DNA of 43,902 nt, taken from assembly GCF_036492835.1 (NCBI RefSeq), contig NZ_AP025326.1:1-43902 (forward strand). Reading direction: 5' to 3'. Position numbers and translations under genes: made by a program. Shown piece by piece: positions 10,851 to 35,054 of this stretch. A model generated the notes under the pieces. That model did no database searches. It saw nothing but the letters and a program-made list of their open reading frames with translations, and was not told the DNA's origin. The DNA comes from Fulvitalea axinellae. Its GTDB lineage: Bacteria > Bacteroidota > Bacteroidia > Cytophagales > Cyclobacteriaceae. Positions within the stretch are counted from its first letter, which is position 1. Each line of letters begins with the position of its first letter.

Positions 10851-11444
10851 CCATTCCAATTTTCCTCCCACCTGCTGGCCGAAACATGGGGAACAGACAC
10901 CCTTACCTACGTCTCCACCATCTACAACGCCTGCATGTCCGAGTCGGAAACCGACCTGGAGCACGAAATAAAACTCAGGGCCTACAGCGAAAATCTGGCT
11001 CCGGAATACTGGCAATCCCGGATGAAAAACGGAAACAACCACCAAATCCCCGATCGGATAGGCTGGAACGCCATCCGCAACAGGCACAAAGACGAACTTA
11101 AACAGATCGCCTACAACTTCTTCGCCTCCATATTCCAAGCCCAAAACGCAGAATCTTGGGAAGAGGTCGAACTCATGGTCTCGCCCAAATTCATGCAGGA
11201 ATTCTTTGCGGACAACCCTTCCATGATATTCAAGAAAGATAATCGTAAAAACAAGTCCGAAGAAGGTCTTAAAGCGTCAGGAAAATGGCTAAAGCAGTTT
11301 GTTGAAGAATTGATATTAAACGATACAACATTTTCAAAATCGATAGTTGAAGATAAATTTATATCCGCATTTGAGAAGTATGTACTGTTTAATTTGTACA
11401 TTAAAAGAGAAGAATATGGATTTGAATACTTAAACACAAAATGA
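10845..11444 (+). CDS. C-terminal-fragment-like protein, cassette A, 199 aa
   Basis: Its N-terminal part LAETWGTDTLTYVSTIYN matches LAEIPGTETLTYVSTIYN in the 12649 gene. Further shared blocks are W-A-[RK]-N-x-HK-[DE]-x-L followed by FF..IF.A, and EELIL near the C-terminus, so the two are paralogues. The only start codon that keeps the conserved block lies inside the REP-like repeat, and the sequence begins abruptly. This looks like the C-terminal end of a larger protein cut off at a repeat. The LRR lipoprotein gene follows with an ATGA overlap. The arrangement resembles displaced toxin-tip/immunity cassettes of polymorphic toxin loci, which is inference. No catalytic motif is recognised. Confidence 0.6.
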   Translation: MVPFQFSSHLLAETWGTDTLTYVSTIYNACMSESETDLEHEIKLRAYSENLAPEYWQSRMKNGNNHQIPDRIGWNAIRNRHKDELKQIAYNFFASIFQAQNAESWEEVELMVSPKFMQEFFADNPSMIFKKDNRKNKSEEGLKASGKWLKQFVEELILNDTTFSKSIVEDKFISAFEKYVLFNLYIKREEYGFEYLNTK

Positions 11445-11449
11445 TATTC

Positions 11450-12496
11450 ATGAAACAAGTCCCATACAAATTAGTGCTACTTCTAGCACTAATTTTTTTT
11501 TCATGTCAGAAAGAAAAAAAGCAATTGGAGAAAAAGGAGCTAAGAGTCATCGGGTATCCATACCAATTACATCCGGACTCCGTAAATAAGATTAATCCTT
11601 TAGCGATAGAGGAGATACGGCTATACCGTAGGGAACTAGATTCTTTGCCTGATATCATCTCGAGATTCAAAGAAGTCAAAGAAATATACTTAACCGAAAA
11701 CAACTTCACCCGAGTCCCCGACATCATCCGCCAGTTCCCAAAACTGAAAGTGCTAAGCCTCACGGACAACCCCATCAAAGAGCTCCCCGACTGGCTTTCG
11801 GAAATGAAGGAACTCGAAATTTTAGGCGTTGGGGACTGTGAATTTTCCGAATTTCCTGCCTGTATTCTGAGTATGCCTTGGCTGGAATCATTAGTTATTG
11901 GCGGAAACAATATCTCCGTCATCCCCGACGGGATAGGAAATTTAACCAAACTAACTTATTTAAATATAACAGATTTAGATATCTCCGATTTGCCCGAATC
12001 CATAGGCAACCTTCGGGACTTGGAATATTTATCAGTCACTGGATCAGAGAACCTGCTAACCCTTCCCGAATCTATGGCGAATCTTCAAAAATTAGATCAG
12101 CTCAACATGGTAAACATGAACTTTACCGAACTTCCCGAAGTCGTTTGCCAATTGACCAACCTAAAGATCTTAAGCCTGGAAAGAGAAAGCCTGCTTCACC
12201 AAAACCACAAACCGCTCAAGACCCTGCCCGCCTGCATAGGCAACCTCCAAAACCTCGAACACCTTTACCTCCAAGGGTGCGCCCTCGAATCCCTGCCTCC
12301 CGAAATCGGAAAACTCAAAAGCCTGAAAACCCTGCAGGTAGAGTCCAACAACCTGCGAACTCTCCCCCCCGAAATGGTCACCCTACCCGATGACATGACC
12401 TTCTATTGGCAAGGAAACCCCTGGAAAACCATCCCAAAAGAACTCCAAGACGTAAAATGGGACCAAGGCCTCCCCAGAAGAAGGGCTTTCCTCTAG
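11450..12496 (+). CDS. Leucine-rich-repeat lipoprotein, cassette A
   Basis: The product starts with a lipoprotein signal peptide (MKQVPYKLVLLLALIFFSC, lipobox FFSC). At least ten bacterial-type LRR units follow, with the pattern LP..I..L..L..L.L..N.L; clear ones are LPESIGNLRDLEYL and LPPEIGKLKSLKTL. It should be anchored by lipid in the inner or outer membrane with the LRR solenoid binding a protein partner. The in-frame ATG at 11441 overlaps the preceding stop (ATGA), but ATG 11450 gives the more usual signal peptide. It pairs with the 10845 gene and is paralogous to the 13385 protein. LRR proteins are known among immunity proteins of polymorphic toxins; a plain adhesion or binding role is also possible. 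Confidence 0.85.
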   Translation: MKQVPYKLVLLLALIFFSCQKEKKQLEKKELRVIGYPYQLHPDSVNKINPLAIEEIRLYRRELDSLPDIISRFKEVKEIYLTENNFTRVPDIIRQFPKLKVLSLTDNPIKELPDWLSEMKELEILGVGDCEFSEFPACILSMPWLESLVIGGNNISVIPDGIGNLTKLTYLNITDLDISDLPESIGNLRDLEYLSVTGSENLLTLPESMANLQKLDQLNMVNMNFTELPEVVCQLTNLKILSLERESLLHQNHKPLKTLPACIGNLQNLEHLYLQGCALESLPPEIGKLKSLKTLQVESNNLRTLPPEMVTLPDDMTFYWQGNPWKTIPKELQDVKWDQGLPRRRAFL

Positions 12497-12673: not shown

Positions 12674-13380
12674 CACCCCTTGACAATGGCCCGAAACTTC
12701 AGTACTTTAACCTCACCGGACACGGAGAATTCGCTTTTTCCGCCAGCGCTGGCGCCAGCGCCTTTTACGGCCTCCTGAGGGGTGAAGCCGGGCTTGATCT
12801 CGATATAGAATACACGCGTATGCTTGCCGAAATACCCGGCACCGAAACCCTGACTTACGTCTCCACTATCTACAACTCCCTGCGTTACCGGTCGGATGAT
12901 ACGGCCACGCGAAACGAACGCGAGAAAGCCATGAAGGATGCCCAGAAAAAACGACAAGAGCTTTTGGCCGATGGGGAAACCATGCCCGAAGCCCAAAAAC
13001 AGGAATGGGACCTGTTGGAGAAATACTGGGAAACGTACCAAGAACAGCGCCCCCTCTGGAAAAGCGAAGTCTGGGACGCCTACAAAAACGAGCATAAGGA
13101 AAACCTGAACGAACTCGCCCGAAAGTTCTTCCAGCCCATCTTCGAAGCCAAAACCGGAGCCCAATGGTCCCATATCAATCTGATGACCGTTGACGGGGAA
13201 TTCATGAGAAAAAGGGCTGGATTCAAAACACCCGATAAGTTAAAGGAACAGCTCGATCAGAAGTACTCTATTCAAGAGTACAAGTATACCACCATACAAC
13301 ATCTGGAAGAATTGATTCTAATCAATCAGTATAAAAACCATCAGAAGCATGCCTTCGACTATTATTACTACAGCAACTAA
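12649..13380 (+). CDS. C-terminal-fragment-like protein, cassette B, 243 aa
   Basis: The first ~16 residues are read from the REP-like repeat. After them comes LTGHGEFAFSASAGASAFYG and GEAGLDLDIEY, a small-residue, glycine/alanine-rich stretch, then the block LAEIPGTETLTYVSTIYN shared with the 10845 protein. The rest is helical and charged, with WDAYKNEHKENLNELARKFF matching the same region of cassette A. An in-frame TGA at 12616 rules out a longer upstream reading. The protein therefore looks like the distal part of a larger, probably exported, protein truncated at the repeat. It is followed 4 bp later by a lipoprotein gene. Function is unknown; a toxin-tip role is inference. Confidence 0.6.
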   Translation: MPCLTREWSPLDNGPKLQYFNLTGHGEFAFSASAGASAFYGLLRGEAGLDLDIEYTRMLAEIPGTETLTYVSTIYNSLRYRSDDTATRNEREKAMKDAQKKRQELLADGETMPEAQKQEWDLLEKYWETYQEQRPLWKSEVWDAYKNEHKENLNELARKFFQPIFEAKTGAQWSHINLMTVDGEFMRKRAGFKTPDKLKEQLDQKYSIQEYKYTTIQHLEELILINQYKNHQKHAFDYYYYSN

Positions 13381-13384
13381 GAGG

Positions 13385-14434
13385 ATGAGAGATCTATTCG
13401 TGATTTTTTTGAGCATGCTTTCCGCATGCTCTTTTTTAAAAAAAGAGGAACCGGTCAGTAGGGAATTGGAAACCGAAAGAAAAGTAATTAGACAGCTTGA
13501 GGAAAAATTCGGATTTATAAATGTAGACGAGAAAGTACACGACTATAGCTACTACTTGGATAGTGCTGGTTTCGTTGAATACATTAGGATTATAGATAAA
13601 AACCTCGAAGAACTCCCCCAAGAAATATTTCAATTAAAAAGGTTAACCAGCATTGGTCTGTTTAGTGAAAATATCACCGATATCCCGAAGGACCTAGACA
13701 AAATAGAGAGTCTGGAAAAAATCAACCTGTTGAAAATGCCCATCAGAAGGGTATCTAACCTAAAACTTCCCGACAAACTAAAATTCATCAATTTCACCGA
13801 ATGCCCTTTGGAGGAATTCCCCAAACTTTATAAGGAGAATGACTCAATTCCTTATGATCTTATCATTTCCGATACAAAAATAGATACTATACCCGATTTT
13901 GTCGGAGAGATGAACCTGTCCGAACTCGATGCCGAGCATTGCCCGCTGACCTACGTCTCCCCCAATCTGGGCGATTGCGAAAACATCACCCAGCTCAATT
14001 TTGAGGGAATAAAAAACCTAAAGCTCCCGGACGAACTACGCAAACTAAAAAAAGTCGAGGACCTAAATCTGAAATGGACGGCCCTGCGAAAAATCCCCGA
14101 TTTCGTATGGGAAATGAAAAACTTGGACGCTTTATACATCACGTCCAACCTCATCACGGAAATCCCTCCGGAAATAGGCAAACTAAAGAAACTGAAGTTT
14201 CTCTACGCTCAAGGTAACTACATAGCCACCCTACCCAAAGAGTTCGCCCAGATAAAAGGGATCGAGCTGATCCACCTGGAAGGTAACCCCATCAAGACCA
14301 GATCCCTGCCCGCCGAACTCTTCTTCCCAAGAACCACAAAAGAAAAGCCCGAATTGCTAGTCAACGTCCCAGGACGCTACGACTGCTTCTCCGTCCCCGA
14401 AGAACAAGTCCGGCAAGCCTTCGATGTGGATTAG
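13385..14434 (+). CDS. Leucine-rich-repeat lipoprotein, cassette B
   Basis: ATG 13385 gives the signal peptide MRDLFVIFLSMLSAC with lipobox LSAC. About eight to nine LRR units follow, several degenerate (LPQEIFQLKRLTSIGL; IPPEIGKLKKLKFLYAQGN). The last ~45 residues are unlike the LRR and include ELLVNVPGRYDCF. The start follows the preceding stop by 4 bp, so the two genes are co-translated. It is paralogous to the 11450 product in design, but the repeats have diverged strongly. This is the expected outcome if each lipoprotein matches its own partner. An upstream in-frame ATG at 13349 would spoil the signal peptide. Confidence 0.85.
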   Translation: MRDLFVIFLSMLSACSFLKKEEPVSRELETERKVIRQLEEKFGFINVDEKVHDYSYYLDSAGFVEYIRIIDKNLEELPQEIFQLKRLTSIGLFSENITDIPKDLDKIESLEKINLLKMPIRRVSNLKLPDKLKFINFTECPLEEFPKLYKENDSIPYDLIISDTKIDTIPDFVGEMNLSELDAEHCPLTYVSPNLGDCENITQLNFEGIKNLKLPDELRKLKKVEDLNLKWTALRKIPDFVWEMKNLDALYITSNLITEIPPEIGKLKKLKFLYAQGNYIATLPKEFAQIKGIELIHLEGNPIKTRSLPAELFFPRTTKEKPELLVNVPGRYDCFSVPEEQVRQAFDVD

Positions 14435-21468: not shown

Positions 21469-24186
21469 ATGAGAACAGACCAACAACGTGACCTTTTTGG
21501 TTCCTTATGGAAAAACTTTCAAGAACATGGATACCTATTAGAGTGGAAAGACCGTAAAGCTTATCTCTTAGGATTGGTGTTCTACAAATTCCTTTGCGAT
21601 AACCAATTGCGCCATCTGAGGTCTGACCCCGAACTTTATGATGATTTTTTTGGCTTGGAGGGTACTCCCGATATGGAAAGGAGGGGCGCTAACCGTCTGG
21701 AAGTCGACATCACTCAGAAGATTGGATATTTCATCTATCCGGACGAGTTGCTGACTTCTGTATGGCAACGCGATGAGAGGTCTTTTTTTAATGAAGGTCC
21801 TCAATACTCTGTAGAAAGAGCCCTTTATGCTATAGAATCAAGACTATTTGGCTCGGACTTTTACGATTCGTTTGCGGGGATATTCTCCGACATAAACTTT
21901 ACCCAAATAAGGCATTTGGGGAAGTCTACGACAGACGGCCTTCTTCGGGTTATAGATTTTTTGGCGAGCATACCGGATGATCAGCTGGATTACGGAATGC
22001 TTTTCGACTTCCTCCTCGAAAAATTCGCTGAAGAAGGTGGCCGTAAACGGGCGGAAGTTAGGACCCCTGCCAGTGTTTCGGAACTACTTACAGGTTTGGT
22101 AACAGCGAATCGGCCAGAGATCCAAAAGGCCTACGATCCCGCTTGCGGAAACGCCACGCTTTTGATTGATTTAGCTAAAAAAGGAGGTGTCCAAGTTTTG
22201 ATGGGCCAAGAAATTAATCGGTCTGTTTACAACATCGCCAGAATGAATTTGATGGCTCACGGGGTTCATCCTGGTAATATCGATATACAGCTTGGAAACA
22301 CGCTTGAAGAGCCTTCACCCGAACATAATGATATACGCTTCGATGCTGTAGTTTCAGTGCTCCCATTTAACACAAAGTGGAGAGGGATAGAACGTATTGG
22401 TTTGGGCGATAGATTTATGTCATTAGGCGGTTTAGCTCCAAAAAGCAGGGCGGATTATGCCTTTGTGCAACATATGATCCAGCGCCTTGATGAACATGGC
22501 ATCATGGCCGTTATACTTCCTAGTAACGCTCTTTTCCGTGGAAATGCGGAAGCCCGTATTCGTCGATTCCTTATCGAGGATCGAAATTACCTGGACGCTG
22601 TTATTGAATTACCGGCTAATATCTTCCATGGGACCTCTACATCTACCAGTATTTTGGTTTTTAAGAAAGACCGTACTGACAACAATGTTCTTTTTATAAA
22701 TGCCAGTCGGCATTTTGAGAAGGCCAAATTTCAAAACCATCTGAGGCCTGAGGATATTCAGCGTATATTGTCCACTTACTCCAGTCGCAGAATTAGTGAC
22801 GATTATAGTCATCAAGCTCCTTTAAGTGAAATTGCCTCAAATGATTATAATCTAAGTATCTCGCGTTACATCTATAAAGAAGGGGACTCACTAGATCCGA
22901 ATAAAATTTACCTTCCTCTTTCCGATGTGATAACCCAAGTAAAAGGCCGAAAGCTAAGGACTGAGGAATTATCGATCAAGATTAATGTTCTTGATTTGTC
23001 ACCTGATCCTTTTGATGTAGCGCAAAGTTTTACTGATAAAGAAAAAGAGTGGAATTCCGGATCTGGGAAGTTAATTGAAGAAGACACTTTCCTTTTCGCC
23101 TTTTATAACGATAAAGTTTATCTGACGCAGTTTAAATATACCGGTACTCCTATCTTCATTCGAACAGGAACCTCCCTGCCCTTTAAATTAAAAATAGGGA
23201 GGGTGGATCCGAATTTCTTTATTCGTGAAATGTTCTCAGATTACATGAAGCAACAATTAAGGAGGTATGTGTCAGGAACAACAGCAATACAGAGGGTCTC
23301 GTTCTCCAATTTCCGCAAAGTAAGGGTCGAATACCTTCCTTTGAATGAGCAAATAAGCCGAGTTAAAGAGGCTAATAAAGAATATATACAGGCGAAAGAA
23401 TTAAAGATTCAGGCCGAACGGGAACGTTTGGGCATAGACCAAGCATTCTATACAGAAGCGGCTTCATTAAAACATAGCCTCGGTCACGATCTATCCAATT
23501 TTTCTTCCGGCTTATCTCTACTTGAGAAGCATATCGATTTGGACAAAGTAATAAACCCTAAAAGAGGGAGGTCCTTAAGGGATGTTCTGGAAGACATGAA
23601 GCAAAGTAAAAATGATATAACGCAACGGCTAGGTTCCTTTGAAAAGCGGTTGCGAGGTAAAGAACCGTTGGAGGAAACCTCTCTTTCTGATGTCATTGAA
23701 GCGGTGGATTCTATTTTTAAAAGAAGCCTTCATTTTCGTTGGGAAGTGATAAAAGATATAACGGATAATCCGAAAGACATAAAGTTCCAATGGGCCCCGG
23801 AAAGTTTTAATACTGTCTTGAAGAATATCCGTCAAAATGCTTTGGACCACGCGTTTAAAATCTCAAATCCGGATCGAGACGAAATAGCCTTTGAAGTTAC
23901 AATATTGGTAGATTGGCTTGAGCCTCAAAACCGTTTAGGCGAGCAAGCGAACTATACAAGATATATCGCATTGGCCTTTAAAAACAACGGGGCTCCTTTT
24001 CCCAAAAAGTTCGGTTTCAAGGGGCTCACCGAATCGGGACAAACTACCGACAGAAAGAATCATAGTGGTGTGGGAGGAAGTGATATTTTGAGGTTGATGG
24101 AGCAAATGAACGGTAAGTTTGAATTGAGTACAGACGACGATGCGGAATTCCCGGTAACGTACAGGCTGTTATTACCTTTGATCTGA
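21469..24186 (+). CDS. Degenerate HsdM methylase - HsdS-like TRD - histidine kinase fusion, 905 aa
   Basis: Residues 1-470 follow type I HsdM closely: N-terminal helical domain, SAM motif I DPACGNAT (223-230, normally GSG), PKSRADYAF, LPSNALFRG, ELPANIFHGT and NLSISRYI. But catalytic motif IV, normally NPPF, reads SVLPF (296-300), so methyl transfer is doubtful. Residues ~480-630 look like one HsdS target-recognition domain, ending LPLNEQI. Then comes a helical linker and a kinase-like part: H-box with HDL (His673 likely), N-box KNIRQNALDHAF (785-796), G1 FKNNGAPFP and G2 HSGVGGSDI (865-873). So one polypeptide has DNA recognition and a GHKL ATPase/phosphotransfer module, with no membrane segment. 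A response-regulator gene follows after 54 bp. The proposed role is a cytosolic DNA-state sensor; this is inference. Confidence 0.82.
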   Translation: MRTDQQRDLFGSLWKNFQEHGYLLEWKDRKAYLLGLVFYKFLCDNQLRHLRSDPELYDDFFGLEGTPDMERRGANRLEVDITQKIGYFIYPDELLTSVWQRDERSFFNEGPQYSVERALYAIESRLFGSDFYDSFAGIFSDINFTQIRHLGKSTTDGLLRVIDFLASIPDDQLDYGMLFDFLLEKFAEEGGRKRAEVRTPASVSELLTGLVTANRPEIQKAYDPACGNATLLIDLAKKGGVQVLMGQEINRSVYNIARMNLMAHGVHPGNIDIQLGNTLEEPSPEHNDIRFDAVVSVLPFNTKWRGIERIGLGDRFMSLGGLAPKSRADYAFVQHMIQRLDEHGIMAVILPSNALFRGNAEARIRRFLIEDRNYLDAVIELPANIFHGTSTSTSILVFKKDRTDNNVLFINASRHFEKAKFQNHLRPEDIQRILSTYSSRRISDDYSHQAPLSEIASNDYNLSISRYIYKEGDSLDPNKIYLPLSDVITQVKGRKLRTEELSIKINVLDLSPDPFDVAQSFTDKEKEWNSGSGKLIEEDTFLFAFYNDKVYLTQFKYTGTPIFIRTGTSLPFKLKIGRVDPNFFIREMFSDYMKQQLRRYVSGTTAIQRVSFSNFRKVRVEYLPLNEQISRVKEANKEYIQAKELKIQAERERLGIDQAFYTEAASLKHSLGHDLSNFSSGLSLLEKHIDLDKVINPKRGRSLRDVLEDMKQSKNDITQRLGSFEKRLRGKEPLEETSLSDVIEAVDSIFKRSLHFRWEVIKDITDNPKDIKFQWAPESFNTVLKNIRQNALDHAFKISNPDRDEIAFEVTILVDWLEPQNRLGEQANYTRYIALAFKNNGAPFPKKFGFKGLTESGQTTDRKNHSGVGGSDILRLMEQMNGKFELSTDDDAEFPVTYRLLLPLI

Positions 24187-24240
24187 TACACTGAAAACAA
24201 CAACTTCTTTTCCATATTTTTTGAATTTTAGTACTGAAAA

Positions 24241-25221
24241 ATGGACCTACAAAGACAAGCTCCTATTAAAACCCTTTTGGTTGATGATGCCCCGAGTAAC
24301 AACTTTATAGATAATGCGGAAGGTGAAGGCTTAGACCTGAAACCCGTTTCGAATGTCGAAGGTATGCGGAAAATCCTAGAGAGTGAGAACCATGTTTTTG
24401 ACGCGGTGATTTTGGATGTTCGTTTTTATGAAGACCAATCGGAAGGAAGAACAACCCAAGCGGCCTACCGACAGGCTAGGGAGTATCTATCCAATAAGGA
24501 CCTAAAATACTTTACGTATACTGGTCAGGATTCGATTAAGAAAGATGACTCTTTCCATGAAACGTATGGTTTTGACGACGACGAAAACTTCTTATACAAG
24601 AAAGGAATAGATGAAGACAAACTTATCGAAGACATCAAGAGCTTCGTAACTGAGGAAGGCGAAAACTGGAAATTAAAGAATCGACATACTCATATTTTCT
24701 CCGCTTCCGCCATTGATCATCTCCAGCTTCTGGAACCTGATCTATTAAAACTGGCGAAGACTTTGGATTCAATAAACACGGGAGATCAGGATGTGGAAGA
24801 CCTGTTTAACTGTTGCCGACGAATAATCGAAAATATCTTTAAAGCATGCGCAACCCAAGAGATTTTACCTAACCATTTTGTGGCCAACGAAGTAGCTCTT
24901 AACCCGTCAAGTAGATTTCTTTCTGGTCAGAAAGCCGAACATAACTACATTGCCTTTAAGCCTACCGGTGGTCACAGCCCGTTTCCTAAATCGGTTGCAA
25001 ACGTGCTGAGATCTATTTTAGAGATAACGAATGAAGGTTCGCACAGCAACTTAACCCAAGATTGTACACCTCATCAGAGAACATATCTCTTAACGGCGGT
25101 AATAAACAATCTATTCGCCCTGGTATCTTGGACAAAAGACCATCTTTCAAAAAATGATCTTCAGAAAAAACAGTGGAGTCAAACATCAGTGTCTAGGCGA
25201 AGAAGAGGCTCAAGAAACTAA
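24241..25221 (+). CDS. Response-regulator-like protein with a helical output domain, 326 aa
   Basis: Residues ~8-135 form a receiver domain: acidic pair Asp15-Asp16 (LLVDDAPSN), phospho-acceptor Asp59 (VILDVRF), Thr94 (YTG) and a conserved Lys in LYKKG (~120). The rest, ~145-326, is helical and not a known DNA-binding output. It carries SILEITNEGSHSN near 270, resembling HEPN/abortive-infection C-terminal domains, and ends in a basic tail RRRRGSRN. It is encoded directly after the methylase-kinase gene and is its natural phosphorelay partner. The lack of a helix-turn-helix argues for an effector rather than a transcription factor. No nuclease motif can be named with certainty. Confidence 0.8.
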   Translation: MDLQRQAPIKTLLVDDAPSNNFIDNAEGEGLDLKPVSNVEGMRKILESENHVFDAVILDVRFYEDQSEGRTTQAAYRQAREYLSNKDLKYFTYTGQDSIKKDDSFHETYGFDDDENFLYKKGIDEDKLIEDIKSFVTEEGENWKLKNRHTHIFSASAIDHLQLLEPDLLKLAKTLDSINTGDQDVEDLFNCCRRIIENIFKACATQEILPNHFVANEVALNPSSRFLSGQKAEHNYIAFKPTGGHSPFPKSVANVLRSILEITNEGSHSNLTQDCTPHQRTYLLTAVINNLFALVSWTKDHLSKNDLQKKQWSQTSVSRRRRGSRN

Positions 25222-25295: not shown

Positions 25296-28200
25296 TCAAA
25301 CATAAACACTCCTGCCCCCACCATGATAACTGGAGTACACATGCTGATACACAGCCATCGCCTTTAGGCTCACATCCTCATCAGTATACGACCGCTCCGG
25401 CAACCAAAGCAACTGGTCGTAGATCGAACTTTTCACCTTGGCCTTGGCCTCCCTGCTCTCCCGCCAACGGTCTATCTTTAGCTTCTCCCCCTTCAGTATA
25501 TCGAGCGTCTTGGACGCTACCTCCTTCACCTTATTGCGTTCCTCCGCATTCAGCTCCTTTCCTTCCAGCAAAAGGTCGAATACAGCCAACACCTCCTGGT
25601 CGCCAACCTGCTCCCTTACGGCGCGTTGCTCTTCCAAATGCAGGTCCTTGATAAACTCGTGCAATTTATCGAATGAGCGTTGCGTGTTCTCCAGATCCTT
25701 GCCCTCGTTATATTCCCGGATAATTTTCTTGTACCGCTCATAAAACGATACCCGCAAAGGGTTCTCCCGAAGCATGTGCTCCAGCTTGCGCTCCACCGCC
25801 TCCTGAAGGTCGTAGGTAAAACGTTTCTTACGGGGTGTCTTGACGAAGGCCTTCCGCAACTTGTCAAAATCGAGACGGCTTAAGTCCACATAAGCGTTTC
25901 CCGTTTCCCGCACGCCACTGCTTTGGGTTGTCACACTGTCGTCCACCACTTCCTGAAGCTCCCGGATAATGTCGCTTACGTCGGCCGACGCCGTCTTCTG
26001 GTTCAGGGCTCCGTATATCGCCTCTATCGCGTGATGGGCCTTTGAGTGGGCTTTGGCCTCCTCTTCCGGAAACAGGGCCTTATATTTCCGGAATACGTTC
26101 CGGGCCATAAACTCGAAGGTGGCCCGGCTTTGCCGGTTCAGGCATACCGCCTCCACGGCTTCCCCGATTATCCTCAGTCGTTCCATCGGCTTGGCATTGT
26201 AAAGGTCCGCGAGCCGAAACCCCAACTCCTTCAGGTAATTCCGGGTATCCCTTATCGCCTGTTTCAGCTCCTCTTCAAGTTCGGACAAAGGCTCCGGAGG
26301 TGGTCCCGGCGGGTGCCCTTCTCCGCTCCGTCCGCCTTCCCCGTACACGGAATAGGCTTTTTCCAGCTGTTTATAGACATTCCCGTAATCGATGATCAGA
26401 CCGTTCTCTTTATCCTCGTCATATACCCGGTTGGCCCGCGCGATGGTCTGCATCAGCGTATGCCCTTTGATCGGTTTGTCCAGATACATCGTCGAGACGC
26501 ATTGCGCGTCAAAGCCCGTGATCCACATCGAGCACACGATCGCTAATCGGAAGGGGTTATCCTCGTCCTTGAATTCTTTTTCCAGGTTCCGCTCTACCAT
26601 CTTCCGCCGGTGTGGCGCTATCTCCAAGCCCAATTTCCGGAACTTGTCCACCTCGTTCTGCTCGTTGCTTACCACTACGCATACTTCCGTCTTTTCGGCT
26701 CTACCCAGCGCTTCTTCAAGCTTCTTCCGTTCTCCCTTGTCCTGACATTTGTCCAGCTTCTCCCTCAGCTCTTCCACATAGTCCGGCCAATGTTTCACGA
26801 TCAGCCCGTGCATCCGTACCGCCGTCGGCTTGTCCAAAGTTACCAGCATCGCCTTTCCTTGGTAGCCCCGTTCGTTGAAATGCCATACCAGGTCTTTGGC
26901 TATATCGTTAAGCCTCGATTCGGCCGTCAATACGGGATACTGCCGCTGGAACATATGCGTCAGCTTTTTCCGCTTGTCCTCGTCCAGGTTTTCGTCTTCC
27001 AGAATCTCGGCCATGCGCTCGTCCAGCGCCGGGTTCTCGATATCCAGTTTTTCCCCGCGGTTCAAGTATCGCAACGGCAAAGTCGCCTGGTCGTCCACAG
27101 CGCGCTTAAAGTCGTATACGGATACGTAATCCCCGAAGATTTTCCGTGTAAGCTCTCGCTCCTCCTGTATGATCGGGGTCCCCGTAAAGCCGATAAACGA
27201 GGCGTTCGGCAAAGCGCGGAATCGCATATTCCCCGCGTAGATCCCCCCCTGTGTCCGGTGGGCCTCGTCCGATATCACGATCACGTTCTTGCGTTCCGTA
27301 AGCAGGGGGTACTCGGTTTCCGTCTTGTCGTCCACCGAAAACTTATGGATAAGCGTAAACACGTAACGGTGGTTCTCCCTCAGCAATTCCCGGAGATGGG
27401 CCCGCCCCGTCATGCCCTTCTTTTTGCCGGCTACAAGCTTGGGGTCGTTCACCGCGCCCACGCCCGAAAACGTTTCGTATATCTGGTTCTCCAACTCGCT
27501 CCGGTCCACGGCGATCAAAAACGTATAGCCCCCCCCGAGCTTCCGGTGCGCCTTCTCGCACAAAAAGACCATTGAATACGATTTCCCGCTGCCCTGGGTA
27601 TGCCAGTAAACGCCCAGATTGCCCTCCAGATCCTCTATCCGGCGGATATTCTCCAACACCCGGTTCACTCCCAGATACTGGTGGTTTTTCGCCATCAGCT
27701 TCGACACTTCTCCCTTCGAGCTGTCAAACAGAAGAAAGTTTTCGAAGATGTCCATAAAGCGCTCCGGTGCGCAGGTACCCCTTAACATCGTGTCCAGGCT
27801 TACCTTCCCCTCTTCCTCTTCCGATATCCTTTTCCATTCCAAAAAGTACTTGTAGGGGCTCGTAAGCGTCCCCACCCTCGATTCCGTCCCGTTGCTCAGG
27901 ATAATGAACGCGTTGGCGTGAAACAGCTCGGGAATAGTGTCTTTGTAATCTTTCAGGTTTCCCGAATACGCTTGGCGAAGGGCGGTGTCATGCGCCTTCA
28001 GCTCGAACAGAGCCAAGGGCAACCCGTTCACGAATCCCACTATATCCGGCCTGCGCAAATACAGCTCTCCCTGAACCTCAAACTGCCTGACGGCCAAAAA
28101 ATGATTGTTGCCGTAATCCCCGAAATCGAACACCCTCAACCTTGTCTTCACCAACTCCCCCTCATCGTTCGTAAAGCTCACGGGCACGCCTTTACGCAAA

Positions 28201-28490
28201 AGTTCGTACTTGTCCTTGTTGATCGCCCCCAGGCTCTTGCCCGATTCCTTTCGTGTCAGCCTTTCCTCGGCTTGCCGGTACGCTTTTTCCGGCAGGCCCG
28301 GATTCAGCTTTTCCAAAGCCTTCCGCAAGTGTCGGGTCAACACCACTTCCGACCGGTCTTCCCGGCCCAAAAGCCCTTCCTCTCCGAAACTCTCCTTTTT
28401 CCAGGCGCTCTTTACCTCCCATCCCAACTCCCGCAATACGTCCTCCGTCGCCTGTTCTACCAATCCGTCTTCTGAATATTCGTAGCTCAT
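25296..28490 (-). CDS. hsdR: Type I restriction endonuclease subunit R
   Basis: The 1064-residue protein has an N-terminal PD-(D/E)xK nuclease (Asp149 in RRPDI, then ELK with Glu163 and Lys165). The SF2 translocase has Walker A HTQGSGKS (297-304), DEAH (408-411), FTGTPI (435-440) and motif VI TIARANRV. A long helical C-terminal part would dock on the methylase core. It would translocate and cut DNA lacking HsdM modification. ATG 28490 lies 4 bp after the mcrC stop. It is thus the last gene of an operon in which mcrB and mcrC stand between it and hsdS. All key motifs are intact. Confidence 0.95.
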   Translation of the reverse strand: MSYEYSEDGLVEQATEDVLRELGWEVKSAWKKESFGEEGLLGREDRSEVVLTRHLRKALEKLNPGLPEKAYRQAEERLTRKESGKSLGAINKDKYELLRKGVPVSFTNDEGELVKTRLRVFDFGDYGNNHFLAVRQFEVQGELYLRRPDIVGFVNGLPLALFELKAHDTALRQAYSGNLKDYKDTIPELFHANAFIILSNGTESRVGTLTSPYKYFLEWKRISEEEEGKVSLDTMLRGTCAPERFMDIFENFLLFDSSKGEVSKLMAKNHQYLGVNRVLENIRRIEDLEGNLGVYWHTQGSGKSYSMVFLCEKAHRKLGGGYTFLIAVDRSELENQIYETFSGVGAVNDPKLVAGKKKGMTGRAHLRELLRENHRYVFTLIHKFSVDDKTETEYPLLTERKNVIVISDEAHRTQGGIYAGNMRFRALPNASFIGFTGTPIIQEERELTRKIFGDYVSVYDFKRAVDDQATLPLRYLNRGEKLDIENPALDERMAEILEDENLDEDKRKKLTHMFQRQYPVLTAESRLNDIAKDLVWHFNERGYQGKAMLVTLDKPTAVRMHGLIVKHWPDYVEELREKLDKCQDKGERKKLEEALGRAEKTEVCVVVSNEQNEVDKFRKLGLEIAPHRRKMVERNLEKEFKDEDNPFRLAIVCSMWITGFDAQCVSTMYLDKPIKGHTLMQTIARANRVYDEDKENGLIIDYGNVYKQLEKAYSVYGEGGRSGEGHPPGPPPEPLSELEEELKQAIRDTRNYLKELGFRLADLYNAKPMERLRIIGEAVEAVCLNRQSRATFEFMARNVFRKYKALFPEEEAKAHSKAHHAIEAIYGALNQKTASADVSDIIRELQEVVDDSVTTQSSGVRETGNAYVDLSRLDFDKLRKAFVKTPRKKRFTYDLQEAVERKLEHMLRENPLRVSFYERYKKIIREYNEGKDLENTQRSFDKLHEFIKDLHLEEQRAVREQVGDQEVLAVFDLLLEGKELNAEERNKVKEVASKTLDILKGEKLKIDRWRESREAKAKVKSSIYDQLLWLPERSYTDEDVSLKAMAVYQHVYSSYHGGGRSVYV

Positions 28491-28494
28491 ACGC

Positions 28495-29805
28495 TTATCG
28501 CTCTAACATGGGGAGCCTTACTCCCACTTTAAAAATATTATAATAGCCGTCTATTTCCGTGGCCTTTAAATTTACGTCAAAAAGATCCGCCACACCATTT
28601 TCCTGATCAGGATAAATAATCAGACAGTCGATCACCTCTCCCCGAGGGATATTCAAGTCTTTATGAACCTCCCGCAAACGGGCGTAACCGCTGACTTGGC
28701 GCATATCCTTATGGATCCGGCCCTTGACGTATTTTTCTTTATACTTCGCGTCCACCACCATTTTATACTCCAGACGCTTATCATCATGCGGGGCATCCAG
28801 CAGATAATCCAGCTCATTCCCTTTCTTCCTGACCTGGAATTTCACCTGATTCCCAAACCGGTCCTTCAGCAAGCCCAAGGCGTAGAGCTCGAACAGCTTG
28901 CTCATATCTATCCAGAACGGGGGCGTGTTGACCATCGCCTCCACCGTATTGTTCAGGTTATACCCGAACCGCTTCAGTATCATCTTGGCCAGATCCAAAG
29001 CCTGCCCATACTCTTTGTAAAAGGCGTTGAACTTGCTGTGCTTGATCTCATGCGGGCCGATCTCCTCCGATACCTCCGCGAAGGCCGGCATAATATAATG
29101 AAGCGTATTGTTCAGCTCCTTATGGTCGGCGAAACGGTGAAACGTAGGCAAATACCGCTGTACAAACACCAAGGCTTTTTTCAACAGCCTGTTTTCCTTA
29201 TGGTCAAAACCGAAGGCCTCATGGGAGCAGTACACATGCAGGCGCTTCTGTTGTGACAGGTTGTGCTTGACGGTTTTCCCAACCAGCACCTTTCCCTTCA
29301 CCCTTCCGTACAGGTTCCGCTCCACCGGATAATAAGACTTCTTCAGCCCCTTGCGCACGATGTCCTTCAGCACAGCCAAAAACTCCACCACCAAAAAGGG
29401 CGTCAGCATATCTTTTTCTTGCGATATCCGAATACTGGGCCTGTCCCATTTCACTATGGAGAGCTCCTTGATCTCTTCGCGCACTTCCGCATGCTTCAGG
29501 CAGGAAAACAGCATCCCCAAGTGGTCCAACTGCCGGCCTTCCACATTGAGCTTGGGCTCCACATACAGTGCCCTTTCACCCTCTATTATCCAGTCCGCCC
29601 CTACAAAGTAGCCCGTTGTCAGCTGATATTCATCGTTTGCCTTTTTGTCAAACCGGAAACACTCCTGCTCTTTGCTTTTTCCCTTATGCGTTTTCGGAAA
29701 ACGTTGGACGTAACGTTCCTCCCGCATGCCCTCGGCGGAAACCAAACGGGGCTTTTTTTCGCTTGCGCCCGTATGTTCTCTGCAACTAATCAGTTTATGC
29801 TTCAA
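28495..29805 (-). CDS. mcrC: McrC, nuclease subunit of McrBC-type (type IV) restriction
   Basis: The 436-residue protein has an N-terminal DUF2357/McrC-like part, the conserved segment PPFWIDMSKLFELYA (295-309) and a PD-(D/E)xK nuclease core with ELDYLL (331-336) and VVDAKYK (Asp352, Lys354). McrC associates with the McrB GTPase ring and cuts DNA carrying modified cytosines. It overlaps mcrB by 11 bp and precedes hsdR by 4 bp, so all three are translationally linked. Length is somewhat above the usual ~350, with the extra residues at the N-terminus. Confidence 0.9.
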   Translation of the reverse strand: MKHKLISCREHTGASEKKPRLVSAEGMREERYVQRFPKTHKGKSKEQECFRFDKKANDEYQLTTGYFVGADWIIEGERALYVEPKLNVEGRQLDHLGMLFSCLKHAEVREEIKELSIVKWDRPSIRISQEKDMLTPFLVVEFLAVLKDIVRKGLKKSYYPVERNLYGRVKGKVLVGKTVKHNLSQQKRLHVYCSHEAFGFDHKENRLLKKALVFVQRYLPTFHRFADHKELNNTLHYIMPAFAEVSEEIGPHEIKHSKFNAFYKEYGQALDLAKMILKRFGYNLNNTVEAMVNTPPFWIDMSKLFELYALGLLKDRFGNQVKFQVRKKGNELDYLLDAPHDDKRLEYKMVVDAKYKEKYVKGRIHKDMRQVSGYARLREVHKDLNIPRGEVIDCLIIYPDQENGVADLFDVNLKATEIDGYYNIFKVGVRLPMLER

Positions 29806-31720
29806 GGCTCAGGGCTTCAATTTTATCCTTGGCGTTTTCCAGCAACAAACCGTCCTTCACGTACTCCCGCAAAATGGGCTTGATCTCATACTCCAGTTTC
29901 ATCTTCAGCTCCCTATCGCCTTCGCCTTCTTTTAGCATAAAATAGCTGTGCCCCAACTGCACGTCACGGTAGTCGAAGTCGGGCGCCAAAAATTCTGAAC
30001 CTTTTCGCTTTCCTTTCTTGTCAACCTTGACAAACAGGGACGAAACCTCCTCAAACAGTTTCTTGGCTTTTCCGTCAGTGATCACCGCCTCGTTCGGCAA
30101 TACCTCCTCAAAAGCGAATCGCCTCCGGATGGCGTAATCCATATGACCAACGCTCCGGTCTGCAGTATTCATCGTCCCGATAATATACAGGTTCTCCGGA
30201 ATGACGATCTCGCGGTCCCCTTCCAAAGCGTAAAGGCTTTCCACGGCCTTGCCCCGGTACTCCAATCCGTAAATAAGCTCCCCCAACACCGTAGGCAAAT
30301 TCGCCCGGTTGATCTCGTCGATAATCAGGACGTAGTTTTGCTCCTTTACGCTAACGGGTCTTTGCCTCTGAGCTTTGTGTTTCTCTTTAAACTCGTTGAA
30401 CTGTTTTAACAATTTGACAAGATATGAGGCGTTACTCTTCATCCCAAATTGCGCAGCTATCGCTTTAAAGGATTTTGGTGAATCGATTTTATGTTCAAAA
30501 GCGATCTTAAAATCCCGGATAAAAATATTGTGGATAATTGGATTCCCGTTACTGAGGTTCTGCCAGCGGTCCCCCGAATATCGGAACCGTTTTTCCTCTA
30601 TATCTACAACATACGCTACGGTTCCGTTAATATTATATTTGCCGTCGGTGTCAATTCTCTCCGATATCTCCTCCTTAAACCCCTCCAACGCCTCTTCAAA
30701 ATCGAGTTCCTCCGATATTTTTTCCGCAGGCTTTTTACTGTCCTCAAGGTTCTTCAAAGCCTTTTGGGCAAACTCCGCCAGCACCTTATCCTCCGCTTCA
30801 TAAACTACTTGCCCGTTTTCATCACTCTTGGCGCTGATCCCCCGCACAAAGTCCTCATAGCTATAAGAAGGGTGAAATTGGATAATCTTGTATTCGCCAC
30901 ACTGTTCAAATGGAACCTGTTCAAACAGATATTTGGCGACGGCGATTTCATACGAGTCGTTCCCGTTTTTGGCTTTAGGTCCTGGCCCCTTCCGATACTG
31001 ATCATAACGTTCGATAATTTTATTAAAAGAGGCCATGTTCGTATTTGAGGCGCTTGGCGAACGCAAAAGCACGCTTTCGTTTTTTACGGAATCCACCGTA
31101 TACTCGGTCGTTCCCCCTTCGCTGAAAAATGTCAACCCCTCGGTGACTTCTCTTCTTATACGTTCCTTTGTCAGCGTTGCGCCAACCATAGCCTTGGCCA
31201 TACGCTTGGCCGTAAAAGTCTTGCCCGTACCTGGAGGGCCTTGCAATACGATCTGCTTTTTATAGCGCAATAGGTCAAGTTTACGCTGGAGGTCTTCTTC
31301 TTGAACTGTTATCATGTAACTAGTCTTATATGAATCATACCAAGAAGTTATAAACTTCCATGTTGGTGTCTTTTTGTCTTGGGCAATTTGCAATGTCCCT
31401 TGAGGTTGGGGAAAATCATCCTCACCCTTGAAAAACTCAAGTACGTTTACCTTCCGAAAATTTTTATGCTTATATTTTTTGCTTAATCCTTCATCTTGGA
31501 AAGGTTCTCCTGTTACTTGGCAAAGGGCTATTGCTGTCTTACCTTCTTTTACGCAAATGATATCACCTTTTTGGATGCGATTTTTGAAGGCTTCACATTG
31601 TGAATTATTCCATTCGCCAGTCCCTATGATGGGTTGTTTCTCCTTGAGTAATAAAGAGGAGTCTATTTTTTCACCTTCTCTCCCATTAGGAAGGCACATC
31701 TGTATATGCCAAAAATTCAT
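29795..31720 (-). CDS. mcrB: McrB, GTP-dependent motor with an EVE-like N-terminal reader
   Basis: Residues 1-135 (MNFWHIQMCLPNG..., KGDIICVKEGKTAIALCQVT) have the pattern of EVE/PUA-like modified-base readers. The AAA+ module has Walker A GPPGTGKT (161-168), Walker B LIIDEINRAN (465-474) and the McrB signature MNTADRS (517-523), with an arginine-rich segment AIRRRFAFEE. The ~300 residues between Walker A and B are longer than in E. coli McrB. With McrC it should restrict DNA with modified bases such as 5-methyl- or hydroxymethylcytosine; the exact target depends on the reader. It starts 19 bp after hsdS. Confidence 0.9.
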   Translation of the reverse strand: MNFWHIQMCLPNGREGEKIDSSLLLKEKQPIIGTGEWNNSQCEAFKNRIQKGDIICVKEGKTAIALCQVTGEPFQDEGLSKKYKHKNFRKVNVLEFFKGEDDFPQPQGTLQIAQDKKTPTWKFITSWYDSYKTSYMITVQEEDLQRKLDLLRYKKQIVLQGPPGTGKTFTAKRMAKAMVGATLTKERIRREVTEGLTFFSEGGTTEYTVDSVKNESVLLRSPSASNTNMASFNKIIERYDQYRKGPGPKAKNGNDSYEIAVAKYLFEQVPFEQCGEYKIIQFHPSYSYEDFVRGISAKSDENGQVVYEAEDKVLAEFAQKALKNLEDSKKPAEKISEELDFEEALEGFKEEISERIDTDGKYNINGTVAYVVDIEEKRFRYSGDRWQNLSNGNPIIHNIFIRDFKIAFEHKIDSPKSFKAIAAQFGMKSNASYLVKLLKQFNEFKEKHKAQRQRPVSVKEQNYVLIIDEINRANLPTVLGELIYGLEYRGKAVESLYALEGDREIVIPENLYIIGTMNTADRSVGHMDYAIRRRFAFEEVLPNEAVITDGKAKKLFEEVSSLFVKVDKKGKRKGSEFLAPDFDYRDVQLGHSYFMLKEGEGDRELKMKLEYEIKPILREYVKDGLLLENAKDKIEALSLEA

Positions 31721-31739: not shown

Positions 31740-32963
31740 TTATCCAACCAGATCCTCCACGTCCACCATACCTGTCATCAGACGGGGCAAGAGCAGGTCG
31801 CAGGCTTCTTTTAGGTGTTGGTTTTGAAGAGATAAGTTTTCTAATTGAGATACAATTGCCGAAGAGATTGATTGGAATGAGTCCTGTAATGATTTGCAAG
31901 GAAGTGTAATAATATAATTTTGCAATACATTCCAGTTAGCTCTTGGCATCTTAGTCCCATTTGATGATTGTGTTGCCGATTCAACAAACTCATCACTAAA
32001 TACAGTTTGTAAGATTATACCGTGTAAGTTTTTTACGGTAGGCCTCAAAACAATTGTATCTGTTGAAGTTATTCCAATATTTAACGCTACTCCAACCTTA
32101 TGAAAATATGGTCGTATTTTACCAAAGAGTACATCACCCGTTAAGTAACGAAACTTCATGCTATCTACTTTTTCTGAGGTTTCCCACTTATTGAGCGTTA
32201 TGGATTTTCTAGGAATATGTTCAAGCCCTATATAAGGTAACGGACTTTTTAGGTCTGATGGATATACCGTATCCTTAATCAAATTTACTACATCACCTAA
32301 TTTCACTCTCTCCCACCCCTCAGGCAATCCCGTCTCCTTATCCAAAGCCACATCCTCATGCCCGGGAAACTTCATCCGAACAAACCACTCCTCATACGTT
32401 AGCCTCGCCTTCTCTTCCAAGAGCTTGATCCGCTTGAGGTTGTTCTCGATCAAGTCATCATATGCCGAGAGGATGCCGGCGATTTTGCGTTGGGTGGGGA
32501 GTGGAGGGAGTTTTAATTTAATTTTTTTAGAATCTGGAACCTTCATGTGTTCCACAGTAGATCCAGAACCGTATGCCTTTATATTTGATTGGCAATACGG
32601 AGCTAATAGAGAGTAGTACAAAAAGTTTGGATCACAAACGTCTTTGTTTGCTCGGTATAATACGGTTCTCTGACCTAAAAACACTTTTTCGTCAGTCTTT
32701 AGAATTCCCACTTCGCCTAATGGGGCTTCTCGGGTTAAGATGATATCCCCTTTTTTAGGAACTAGCCTACGTGTCCACTTAGTATATGTTTCTTCATTAA
32801 CAAAAAAGACATCATCTAGATCGATTCTACCATGCCGAACATTAGATGTTCGGATCATTTTGAAAGGGGTGATATAATCAACCTTTGGAGCGGTTCTATT
32901 CAAGCAATCTACGATCTCTTCGCAAACAGAGTCAATAGTTATAATTTCCCACTTCTCTCTCAT
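31740..32963 (-). CDS. hsdS: Type I R-M specificity subunit S
   Basis: The 407-residue protein has two target-recognition domains: TRD1 from the N-terminus to the conserved helix LPPLPTQRKIAGILSAYDDL (about 150-170), and TRD2 from GLPEGWERVKLGDVV to the end. The second conserved helix region is near SLQNQHLKEACDLLLPRLMTG. It dictates the split recognition sequence of the HsdMSR complex. Its ATG overlaps the hsdM stop (ATGA) and has a clear GGAGG ribosome site 10 bp before it. TRD2 is more AT-rich than its surroundings, which is usual since TRDs are exchanged by recombination. Confidence 0.93.
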   Translation of the reverse strand: MREKWEIITIDSVCEEIVDCLNRTAPKVDYITPFKMIRTSNVRHGRIDLDDVFFVNEETYTKWTRRLVPKKGDIILTREAPLGEVGILKTDEKVFLGQRTVLYRANKDVCDPNFLYYSLLAPYCQSNIKAYGSGSTVEHMKVPDSKKIKLKLPPLPTQRKIAGILSAYDDLIENNLKRIKLLEEKARLTYEEWFVRMKFPGHEDVALDKETGLPEGWERVKLGDVVNLIKDTVYPSDLKSPLPYIGLEHIPRKSITLNKWETSEKVDSMKFRYLTGDVLFGKIRPYFHKVGVALNIGITSTDTIVLRPTVKNLHGIILQTVFSDEFVESATQSSNGTKMPRANWNVLQNYIITLPCKSLQDSFQSISSAIVSQLENLSLQNQHLKEACDLLLPRLMTGMVDVEDLVG

Positions 32964-34924
32964 AACCTCACCTCCTGAATCTTCGCCATCAAAGCTTCCG
33001 CTTTGCCGTTCAGTTCGGCCAGATCACTGTGGATCTCCCGCAGGCGTCCCTTGTAATCGAAATCCATATCGATATCGATCTTCACGCCCACATAGCGCCC
33101 CGGCGTCAGGCTATAGTCCTGTTCTTCGATCTCGGCGCGGTCCGCGATCTTGCAGAACCCTTCCACGTCCCGGTATTTTCCTTCCGGAAAAAGCGTAGCC
33201 AAAGCCTTCCAGTCCTTGATCGCCTGCGCCATATCCTTATGAAGGCTTCCCGCGTCTTCCTCATACGCTTTCAGCGCCCGGTTAAGCTTCGTCACCTTAG
33301 CCTTCGGTGCTTGGTTCAGTTTGCTTGTTTCCGGCTTCTTAAGCTTTTTGCCCTCGTTTTCGGCAATCGCCGCCTGGGCGTCTTCCACCGCCTTTCTTAC
33401 GGGTGCGAACCCTTCCGAAAATCTATGATATATCGCTTCCACGTTCTCCATACTCAAGGCTTCCGCTTTGGCCTCGCTTAGGCTTATCCCGTAGCCCTCG
33501 GCCTCTACCGTTTCCTTCAGGTTCCGGTAGGCCGGTCCGTATAGCTTTTTTATTTTTGAGAGTATGCCTTCCGCGTATTCCCGGTGGGCTCCCATGGCCT
33601 GGGCGTAAGCCGTTGCGTCCTGGCGGTACATGCCCATCACACAACGCAGGTTCGTCAGCTGTCCCGGCGAAAAGTCGTTGATCGTCGTCGTCACCTCCCG
33701 GTAGGTGTTGCGGGCGTCCAGCATCAACACCTTGTCCTTGTTCGCCTCCGGCTTGCCTTTGTCGTAAAACCACACGTGGCAGGGAAGCGAACGCGTATAG
33801 AAAAAGTTGTTCCCCACGGACACGATGCAGTCCACGTCGCCCGTCTCGATCAGCTGTTTACGGATCAGCTTCTCCGCGTTGCCGGCGTCCGTAGCCGAAG
33901 AGGCCATAACGAAGCCCGCCCGGCCCCGGTCGTTCAGATAGCTGCGGAAGTACTGCGCCCAAAGGTAATTGCCGTTCCCGATGGTTCCCTTGCCGGTCAG
34001 TGGAGGCCCGAAAGGCAGGCGCTTGTCTTCCGCCAAAAATTTGTTCTTGGCGTCCACCTTGTCCACGTTAAACGGAGGGTTGGCCATCACGAAATCGCAC
34101 TTGCCTACCAGATCATGAGGGTCCGAATAAAAGCTGTTGCTCTCGATAACCTTCCCTTCTATCCCGTGGATGGCCAAGTTCATCTTCGCCAGCTTCGTGT
34201 TATTGCTCTTCAGCTCCGTACCGTACACCCTGATCGTTTCATTGACCCGCTTACGCTCATGGTCTTCCACAAAGTGCGCCGTCTGCACGAACATGCCACC
34301 CGATCCGCAGGCTGGATCATGCACCACGCCGTGGTTCGGCTCGATAAACTGCACGATCAGGTTCACCAACGACGGAGGCGTAAAGAATTCGCCGCCTTCC
34401 TGCGCGCCTGCGCCCTGCATCGAGAATTTCATCAAAAAGAACTCGTAAATACGGCCGAACACGTCGCCCTTGGCCTTTTTGACGGCCTCCTTGTTAAAAA
34501 CCCGGACCAGATCCCGCAACAACCCGTCGTCGAACTCCTGGTAATTCCGGGGCAAGATACCCGCCAAGTCGCTATACTCGTCCTCGATCAGTTTCATCGC
34601 CCCGTTGATCGCCGTCGCCAGATCGACATCCTCCGGCAAGTCGGCCAGATAATCGTACTGCGCCTTTTCAGGTAACAGGATGGCCCCCGCTCCTGCGTAA
34701 TCCTCCTTCGTGGCCTCCCGTTTGCTTCCCGTCCGGGGATTCACCGGCAATTCGGCTTCCACCTGCGTTTTGGCGTCCTCGTAACGGTTCTGCGCAAAAC
34801 GCAATAACACCAAGCCCAACAGCGGGTCCTTATACTCCGCCGCCGTCAATTTGGAATTCGAACGCAACGCGTCCGCTGAGTCCCACAACTCCTTCTCCAG
34901 TTCCTTTATAGCTTCCTGATTCAT
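32960..34924 (-). CDS. hsdM: Type I R-M methylase subunit M
   Basis: ATG 34924 (MNQEAIKELEKELWDSAD) gives 654 residues; the upstream open stretch is not needed. It has an intact SAM motif I DPACGSGG and catalytic motif IV NPPF, in contrast to the 21469 fusion, and a C-terminal helical region that packs on HsdS. It would methylate adenine at N6 in the HsdS target. It is the first gene of the operon hsdM-hsdS-mcrB-mcrC-hsdR. The two HsdM-type proteins on this plasmid are only distantly alike, so the fusion is not a recent copy of this gene. Confidence 0.94.
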   Translation of the reverse strand: MNQEAIKELEKELWDSADALRSNSKLTAAEYKDPLLGLVLLRFAQNRYEDAKTQVEAELPVNPRTGSKREATKEDYAGAGAILLPEKAQYDYLADLPEDVDLATAINGAMKLIEDEYSDLAGILPRNYQEFDDGLLRDLVRVFNKEAVKKAKGDVFGRIYEFFLMKFSMQGAGAQEGGEFFTPPSLVNLIVQFIEPNHGVVHDPACGSGGMFVQTAHFVEDHERKRVNETIRVYGTELKSNNTKLAKMNLAIHGIEGKVIESNSFYSDPHDLVGKCDFVMANPPFNVDKVDAKNKFLAEDKRLPFGPPLTGKGTIGNGNYLWAQYFRSYLNDRGRAGFVMASSATDAGNAEKLIRKQLIETGDVDCIVSVGNNFFYTRSLPCHVWFYDKGKPEANKDKVLMLDARNTYREVTTTINDFSPGQLTNLRCVMGMYRQDATAYAQAMGAHREYAEGILSKIKKLYGPAYRNLKETVEAEGYGISLSEAKAEALSMENVEAIYHRFSEGFAPVRKAVEDAQAAIAENEGKKLKKPETSKLNQAPKAKVTKLNRALKAYEEDAGSLHKDMAQAIKDWKALATLFPEGKYRDVEGFCKIADRAEIEEQDYSLTPGRYVGVKIDIDMDFDYKGRLREIHSDLAELNGKAEALMAKIQEVRL

Positions 34925-35054
34925 GAATGTCCTTTTCCATATCCGGCCAAAAAAGAAAGGGCCCAAACGCCCCAAAAACTCACTTCATCGGCCTATTCCC
35001 AAAAAATATCAAGTTAGCCATTTACAAACAGGAATACATCCCTTCACCAAAAAA

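Follow-up and report, generated by a model that had tools for sequence, protein, structure and literature searches.

A histidine kinase and response regulator pair with a degenerate type I methyltransferase-like sensor on a defence-rich contig of Fulvitalea axinellae

The stretch of Fulvitalea axinellae DNA analysed here (the window) is one complete contig of 43,902 bases from a 7.39-Mb genome, and it encodes a sensor kinase fusion followed by a response regulator. The kinase-fusion gene (21469-24186, + strand) and the regulator gene (24241-25221, + strand) are separated by 54 bp and encode 905 and 326 amino acids, respectively. The original prediction, made from the letters of the window, described a single 905-residue frame that joins parts resembling the methylase (HsdM) and specificity (HsdS) subunits of type I restriction-modification (R-M) systems to a histidine kinase, with a receiver protein behind it; this layout is borne out. 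The fusion comprises a degenerate HsdM-like domain at about residues 10-474 (21496-22890, + strand; Pfam N6_Mtase at residues 176-470, E = 9.4e-77), one HsdS-like target recognition domain (TRD) with its following helix at residues 484-652 (22918-23424, + strand), and the DHp helix and HATPase domain of a histidine kinase at residues 656-905 (23434-24183, + strand), the ranges being taken from profiles whose members include the window protein itself. The homologue profile of the fusion matches the S subunits 3okg, 5ybb and 1yf2 as well as sensor kinases, and a related TRD-kinase at locus L097 has Specificity_I matches in PADLOC. The TRD is one stretch between methylase and kinase; the two-TRD layout of HsdS was not seen in the window fusion, nor was a membrane-like stretch. 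The regulator joins a receiver domain to a mostly helical output domain (24661-25218, + strand).

Both proteins retain the residues of a phosphorelay. The kinase H, N and G boxes are present, and N790, G841, G867 and G869 are invariant in 38/38 kinases of the family, which at the level of sequence speaks for the HATPase fold. The predicted phospho-acceptor is His669 (codon 23473-23475, + strand), kept in 37 of the 38 kinases with one alignment gap. The phosphorylation site first proposed, His673, was not upheld, as this position is His in only 5/38. At the G1 box position equivalent to residue 839 of the window fusion, Asn replaces Asp in 35/38 kinases, which, judged from the alignment, is a hallmark of the family. 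In the receiver, D16, D59 and K121 are kept in 40/40 regulators, so that the acidic pocket, the phospho-Asp and the Lys are all present; Asp59 (codon 24415-24417, + strand) is the predicted phospho-acceptor, in agreement with the earlier assignment. Not among the 38 are the kinases of L106 and L107, whose frames are short or broken; at L111 no kinase was found.

The family was assembled by regulator searches in overlapping sets of genomes from the same order, class and phylum. At the order level, a single-sequence query of 194 genomes gave four with a match, including the own genome, and a search of 390 genomes gave 18 at E 1e-8. The class search (395 genomes) gave 16 matches, two of them partial (G195, G532) and dropped. 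In the phylum search, 149 of 395 genomes matched at E 0.001, mostly through short matches to the receiver only, and 13 at E ≤2.1e-9, including the own genome; rows above E 1e-8 were dropped. These matches, together with a Myroides plasmid, a contig from Flammeovirga and a gut scaffold (L054), make up 40 regulator loci, and we infer that the members, where placed, are Bacteroidota. Dropped were L052 (a hybrid kinase-receiver outside the family), L090 (taken as a duplicate of L053) and the broken regulator of L112, whose fusion is kept among the 38. The close relatives L103/L105 and L007/L053 were both counted, and L105 was omitted from the identity-matrix correlations.

The kinase and the regulator form a conserved gene pair. 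A kinase gene lies directly upstream of the regulator on the same strand in 39/40 loci, with gaps of -110 to 143 bases. Because the loci were chosen by their regulator, this adjacency is an independent result, and the regulator thus keeps its place beside the fusion across the family, as the original prediction supposed. Across 32 loci, the identity matrix of the kinase correlates with that of the receiver at r = 0.73, the best of ten domain pairs tested.

The methylase part has lost a catalytic motif. In the window fusion, motif I reads DPACGNATL from residue 223, and motif IV reads SVLPF (residues 296-300) instead of NPPF; the pattern (N/D/S)PP(F/Y/W) was not found there. We aligned the 38 fusions with 24 stand-alone HsdM from the same loci: NPP(F/Y) is intact in all 24 HsdM and degenerate in the window and most fusions, where motif IV is, for example, RPM, CPPF, HPPF, KPPF, NPPL, DLP or not recognisable at all. 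L102 has an NPPF, in a protein that the methylase profile does not match. The window protein is accordingly predicted to be non-methylating, its methylase part degenerate, and a sensor that works as a methylase is not supported. The residues of the kinase, meanwhile, hardly vary. The input module appears to have been retained for a non-catalytic role.

Within the fusion, the TRD is better conserved than the methylase part. This holds in 170/210 locus pairs (21 loci with all parts). In the ordinary R-M systems at these 21 loci, each half of HsdS is more conserved than HsdM in just 37/210 and 30/210 pairs, respectively. The locus pairs behind this contrast, the identity medians and the matrix correlations are not independent, and the contrast carries no p-value. 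Median identity across 34 fusions is 22.8% for the TRD, 20.9% for the kinase and 18.2% for the methylase. A sensor that reads a variable recognition sequence is not supported by this pattern, which is the opposite of that in real M/S pairs. Rather, the fused TRD probably reads no variable sites, unlike the TRDs of HsdS, and its slow evolution favours, on balance, a conserved ligand or surface over changeable specificity. The fused TRD matches the HsdS of its own locus in 16 of the 21 loci with HsdS, and this is the best match in two of the 16, the window (clear margin) and L109 (narrow). The idea that the fused TRD is a copy of the local HsdS TRD was thus rejected for the family; it survives for the window.

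The pair stands in a defence-rich setting. Its 3' end lies near that of a convergent type I R-M operon on the - strand, which consists of HsdR (25296-28490; Pfam HSDR_N and SWI2_SNF2), a McrC-like gene (28495-29805; Pfam McrBC, E = 8.8e-31), a McrB-like AAA ATPase (29795-31720; Pfam AAA_5, E = 1.2e-16), HsdS (31740-32963; Pfam Methylase_S, E = 1.2e-23) and a stand-alone HsdM (32960-34975; Pfam N6_Mtase, E = 2.4e-74) with NPPF intact by motif comparison. The far side of the operon is flanked by PtuA and PtuB homologues. The guanine-plus-cytosine content of the pair is 41.6%, compared with 47.0% for the contig and 50.2% for the type I genes. What holds up of the original interpretation is a cytosolic two-component system that is conserved as a gene pair, has a sensor of the M/S type and lies in a contig rich in defence genes.

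Defence genes also adjoin the pair at other loci. HsdM occurs within the fetched stretch in 22/40 loci, immediately after the regulator in 16 of them. In 16 loci a WYL regulator precedes the kinase gene at a distance of ≤200 bp, and in 20 one is present anywhere in the stretch, identified by Pfam for L044, by annotation for L006 and by similarity for the others. In L099 (3776-19286), the pair is placed between a helicase gene and the BrxA, BrxB, BrxC and PglX genes of a bacteriophage exclusion (BREX) operon. L049 (1005-11641), a distant family member without a PADLOC match, has the pair within a Csm (type III) operon of clustered regularly interspaced short palindromic repeats (CRISPR), in the order Cas10, RAMP genes, Csm4, kinase, regulator and a Csx1-like CARF gene. 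The pair of L051 stands before McrBC, and GmrSD genes follow the pair in L040 and L047 (Pfam) and in L043 (similarity). In L097 (8168-13236), a TRD-kinase without the methylase part is followed by the regulator and, 76 bases on, by a TPR-CHAT gene. The methylase, TRD, kinase and receiver matrices correlate with that of the neighbouring HsdM at r = 0.05-0.12 (19 loci; p = 0.08-0.26). The sensor and the receiver thus do not follow the HsdM beside them in sequence, which suggests a portable sensor.

On balance, we lean towards reading the pair as a soluble two-component alarm for the adjacent defence operon, with a sensor derived from a retired, non-methylating type I M/S methyltransferase. We infer its ligand, dimer mechanism, phosphotransfer and output as follows. 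The sensor would retain an M-plus-half-S architecture able to close on DNA, minus the methylation chemistry, and its S-type helix would run into the DHp helix, the dimerising helix of kinases. Half-S proteins probably associate in pairs to form a clamp resembling that of S. A clamp closing on foreign-state DNA, or on a DNA-mimic protein, could shift the helix and alter the dimer. The dimer change would lead to autophosphorylation of His669 and transfer of the phosphate to Asp59 of the regulator, which, once phosphorylated, may switch on or back up the adjacent restriction or defence operon.

Several observations weigh against this reading. The methylase profile matches 31/38 fusions and the TRD profile 35/38, some of the matched proteins being profile members; from the fusions without a methylase or TRD match, other input modules exist in the family. 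NPPF and a detectable methylase domain are kept in L091, L099, L103 and L105 (L103 and L105 are 97% alike), motif IV is NPPW in L047 and SPPF in L104, and some family members may thus methylate. HsdM is absent from 18/40 loci, though several of the stretches are short. At L111 (1-1311), the regulator has no upstream kinase, and the short frame there fails the kinase profile even with filters off; the glycine-rich stretch of this frame may resemble those of RAMP proteins of type III CRISPR systems. The window pair is convergent with the type I genes and does not share an operon with them. The output domain is weakly correlated with the neighbouring HsdM (r = 0.25, p = 0.004). Finally, the best match of the window TRD is its own HsdS (E = 2.1e-6; 37.7 bits versus 26.6 for the best other), which would fit a TRD that shares its target site with the local R-M system.

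This resemblance to the own HsdS is also what an ordinary regulatory pair might show, one that senses the methylation of its own cell or the state of the R-M complex and tunes the local R-M genes like C proteins, and not infection. Such a role is unlikely, though a real possibility. WYL regulators and HsdM adjoin the pair, and two-component-like pairs linked to R-M are known (PMC8011034). However, the output domain has no DNA-binding Pfam family beyond weak single-member matches, BREX, CRISPR and McrBC contexts occur too, and neither sensor nor receiver follows the HsdM sequence.

Alternatively, the fusion may be a decoy or guard. It would imitate the clamp of two M subunits and one S subunit (M2S); DNA-mimicking phage anti-restriction proteins would bind it, the kinase would trip and the regulator would start a second line of defence. 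Proteins of the Ocr/ArdA type bind type I enzymes, and such inhibitors also touch the methylase part. The loss of methylation, the slowly evolving TRD and the placement beside type I R-M and BREX all fit a decoy, as does the finding that 14 of the 16 loci in which the TRD matches its own HsdS show no stronger match to it than to other HsdS. Yet the methylase part drifts fastest and is missing from L097, and the window TRD is best matched by its own HsdS, so that we regard the decoy as doubtful. Equally tentative is its broadest form, in which the dead M/S clamp would be bait for phage anti-restriction DNA mimics or foreign DNA and would trigger, by a His-Asp phosphorelay, a second defence layer, the whole module being portable across the type I R-M, BREX, type III CRISPR and McrBC loci of Bacteroidota.

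The output domain offers a further alternative, in which the regulator itself kills: as an HEPN-like RNase gated by phosphorylation, it would bring about abortive infection. R193 and H268 are invariant in 40/40 aligned regulators. An output profile built from 37/40 regulators (L051, L053 and L105 left out) shows a weak similarity to 23 DUF4145 domains at P = 0.0016, versus 0.17 for the reversed control; three rows of this set below the cut-off (L138-L140) were unused. S1CSD-TOTE-2 is matched by 2/37 output regions; we read these matches as part of a C-terminal OB-like tail that several relatives carry and the window regulator lacks. However, the hhalign probability for DUF4145 is only 15.7%, and a comparison with four DUF4145 rows (P = 0.14) is no better than its reversed control (0.13). 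The canonical HEPN motif Rx4-6H is absent from the window, where H268 ends the segment ILEITNEGSH with no Arg 4-6 residues before it. Moreover, one of 17 regulators, read as L051 from its sequence and counted among the 40, matches Schlafen AlbA_2, and the R and H columns of L051 are probably alignment accidents. An RNase of this kind is therefore quite improbable.

A structure search with the regulator matched the receiver only (residues 6-142), and the output profile found two matches among solved structures, the best a CdiI immunity protein (E = 0.0097), nothing useful. Besides S1CSD-TOTE-2, ten further Pfam families each match one of the 37 output regions, including OB_RNB, Rho_RNA_bind and two phage ssDNA-binding families; DNA-binding families were not found among these regions beyond such weak single-member matches. 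Abi_C (PF14355) gave a single row and was not used for comparison. The output domain may act as an effector or through partner binding. In L051 (2438-6686), the regulator with the AlbA_2 match is followed by AAA and McrBC genes, which we read as output swapping, and in L042 (336-3830) a DUF4145 domain (G331:C39:23500-23769) lies within a downstream 1164-aa gene.

An active HsdM-HsdS methyltransferase, with a kinase part that does no more than regulate methylation, is a very improbable reading of the fusion: the N6_Mtase fold is clear and L099 retains both DPFAGSGSF and NPPF, but motif IV of the window is VLPF and several members lack both motifs. In view of motif IV, we rejected methylase activity as the role of the sensor in the window protein.

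The favoured alarm reading has partial precedents. The HEF_HK (PF19191)/Response_reg_2 (PF19192) pairs, two-component-like and linked to R-M, were published in 2021 (PMC8011034) and are the closest prior art. They too are soluble, adjacent kinase-like and receiver-like genes enriched beside R-M, also in Bacteroidetes. They differ in that type II R-M and cytosine methylases dominate there and the kinase is paraMORC-like, and an M/S fusion is not among the features described in the available text (PMC8011034). PF19191 and PF19192 are not among the families listed for 17 fusions (E 0.01, 11 listed) or 17 regulators (E 0.1, 8 listed). The fusion shares with type I HsdM and HsdS (EcoR124II) the fold of the M domain and one TRD of the S type, followed by its helix; unlike them, it has lost the catalytic motif, has a single TRD and carries an appended kinase, and a separate intact HsdM is present in the 22 loci noted above. 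DHp, HATPase, receiver and phosphorylation residues are kept as in systems of the HK853/RR468 type, whereas the M/S-type input, the lack of a membrane-like stretch in the window protein, the Asn of the G1 box and an output outside the common DNA-binding families set the pair apart.

Among defence systems, Detocs reportedly uses a kinase-to-receiver relay without a methylase or TRD. The relay is shared, and it is this reported description of Detocs, not sequence, that separates it from the pair; PADLOC on 17 regulators gave two single-member matches only, neither named Detocs. The methylation-associated defence system (MADS) likewise combines methylase and specificity proteins, and in PADLOC the window fusion matches mad2 (6.6e-38) and L097 matches mad5 (4.7e-11). 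However, plain type I methyltransferase models score far better on the window fusion (1.1e-102), and NCBIfam MAD2 reaches 22.4 bits against a cut-off of 720. PorXY of Bacteroidota likewise joins a receiver to an output domain that is not DNA-binding; PorX has a PglZ domain (PMC12839542) and was among the matches of the regulator by its receiver only. The same paper mentions Schlafen-kinase fusions beside BREX.

The original prediction knew of no comparable layout. An HsdM-TRD-kinase sensor was indeed not found described in the available portions of the open-licence literature, including PMC12839542, PMC12137116, PMC13092281, PMC7641849, PMC7159879 and PMC8011034, but R-M-linked kinase/receiver pairs had been published in 2021 (PMC8011034). 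A figure legend of PMC13092281 lists HATPase and REC domains among predicted systems, and an earlier computer prediction is thus possible. Two-component systems linked to restriction are therefore already known, and the M/S-derived sensor is unprecedented as far as searches of the open-licence literature go.

If the alarm reading is true, restriction systems have built a phosphorelay sensor of their own out of the machinery with which they recognise DNA, and thus have a route from sensing invading nucleic acid or a restriction inhibitor to a regulated response. To our knowledge, restriction enzymes have not been thought to possess such a route. Pseudo-methyltransferases would gain a function, and the coordination of R-M, BREX and CRISPR would become testable. 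H669 and D59 are now defined as targets for mutation, and the conserved gene pairs are identified.

A plasmid search found relatives in three Myroides records; a Myroides fusion query matched 2027 plasmid records, just these three over >80% of its length, and an L048 regulator query found none among plasmids. The regulator had no relative in a phage collection, and the fusion matched 90 records there, with the methylase part only among the 20 matches listed, the exception being an unverified scaffold from the gut, the record that underlies L054. Viral contig scans with A7, A8, L054 and L043 queries found no relative. Of two genome contig scans, the first gave none and the second the Flammeovirga locus.

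We also note some features beside the pair. In the window, the McrB/McrC-like genes (28495-31720) are embedded between HsdS and HsdR, and the PtuA and PtuB (Septu) homologues lie at 35279-37577 (PADLOC). Elsewhere in the family, a sigma-54 activator gene is divergent before the pair, 119-137 bases off, in L007 (13314-14792; Pfam) and in L047 and L053 (similarity). Although no exact overlap of ≥15 bases was found between its ends, the window contig appears plasmid-like, because it encodes a Rep_3 replication initiator and its Y-family polymerase and S24-peptidase genes have relatives on the Myroides plasmid. The contig also encodes two leucine-rich-repeat proteins (11441-12496 and 13349-14434).

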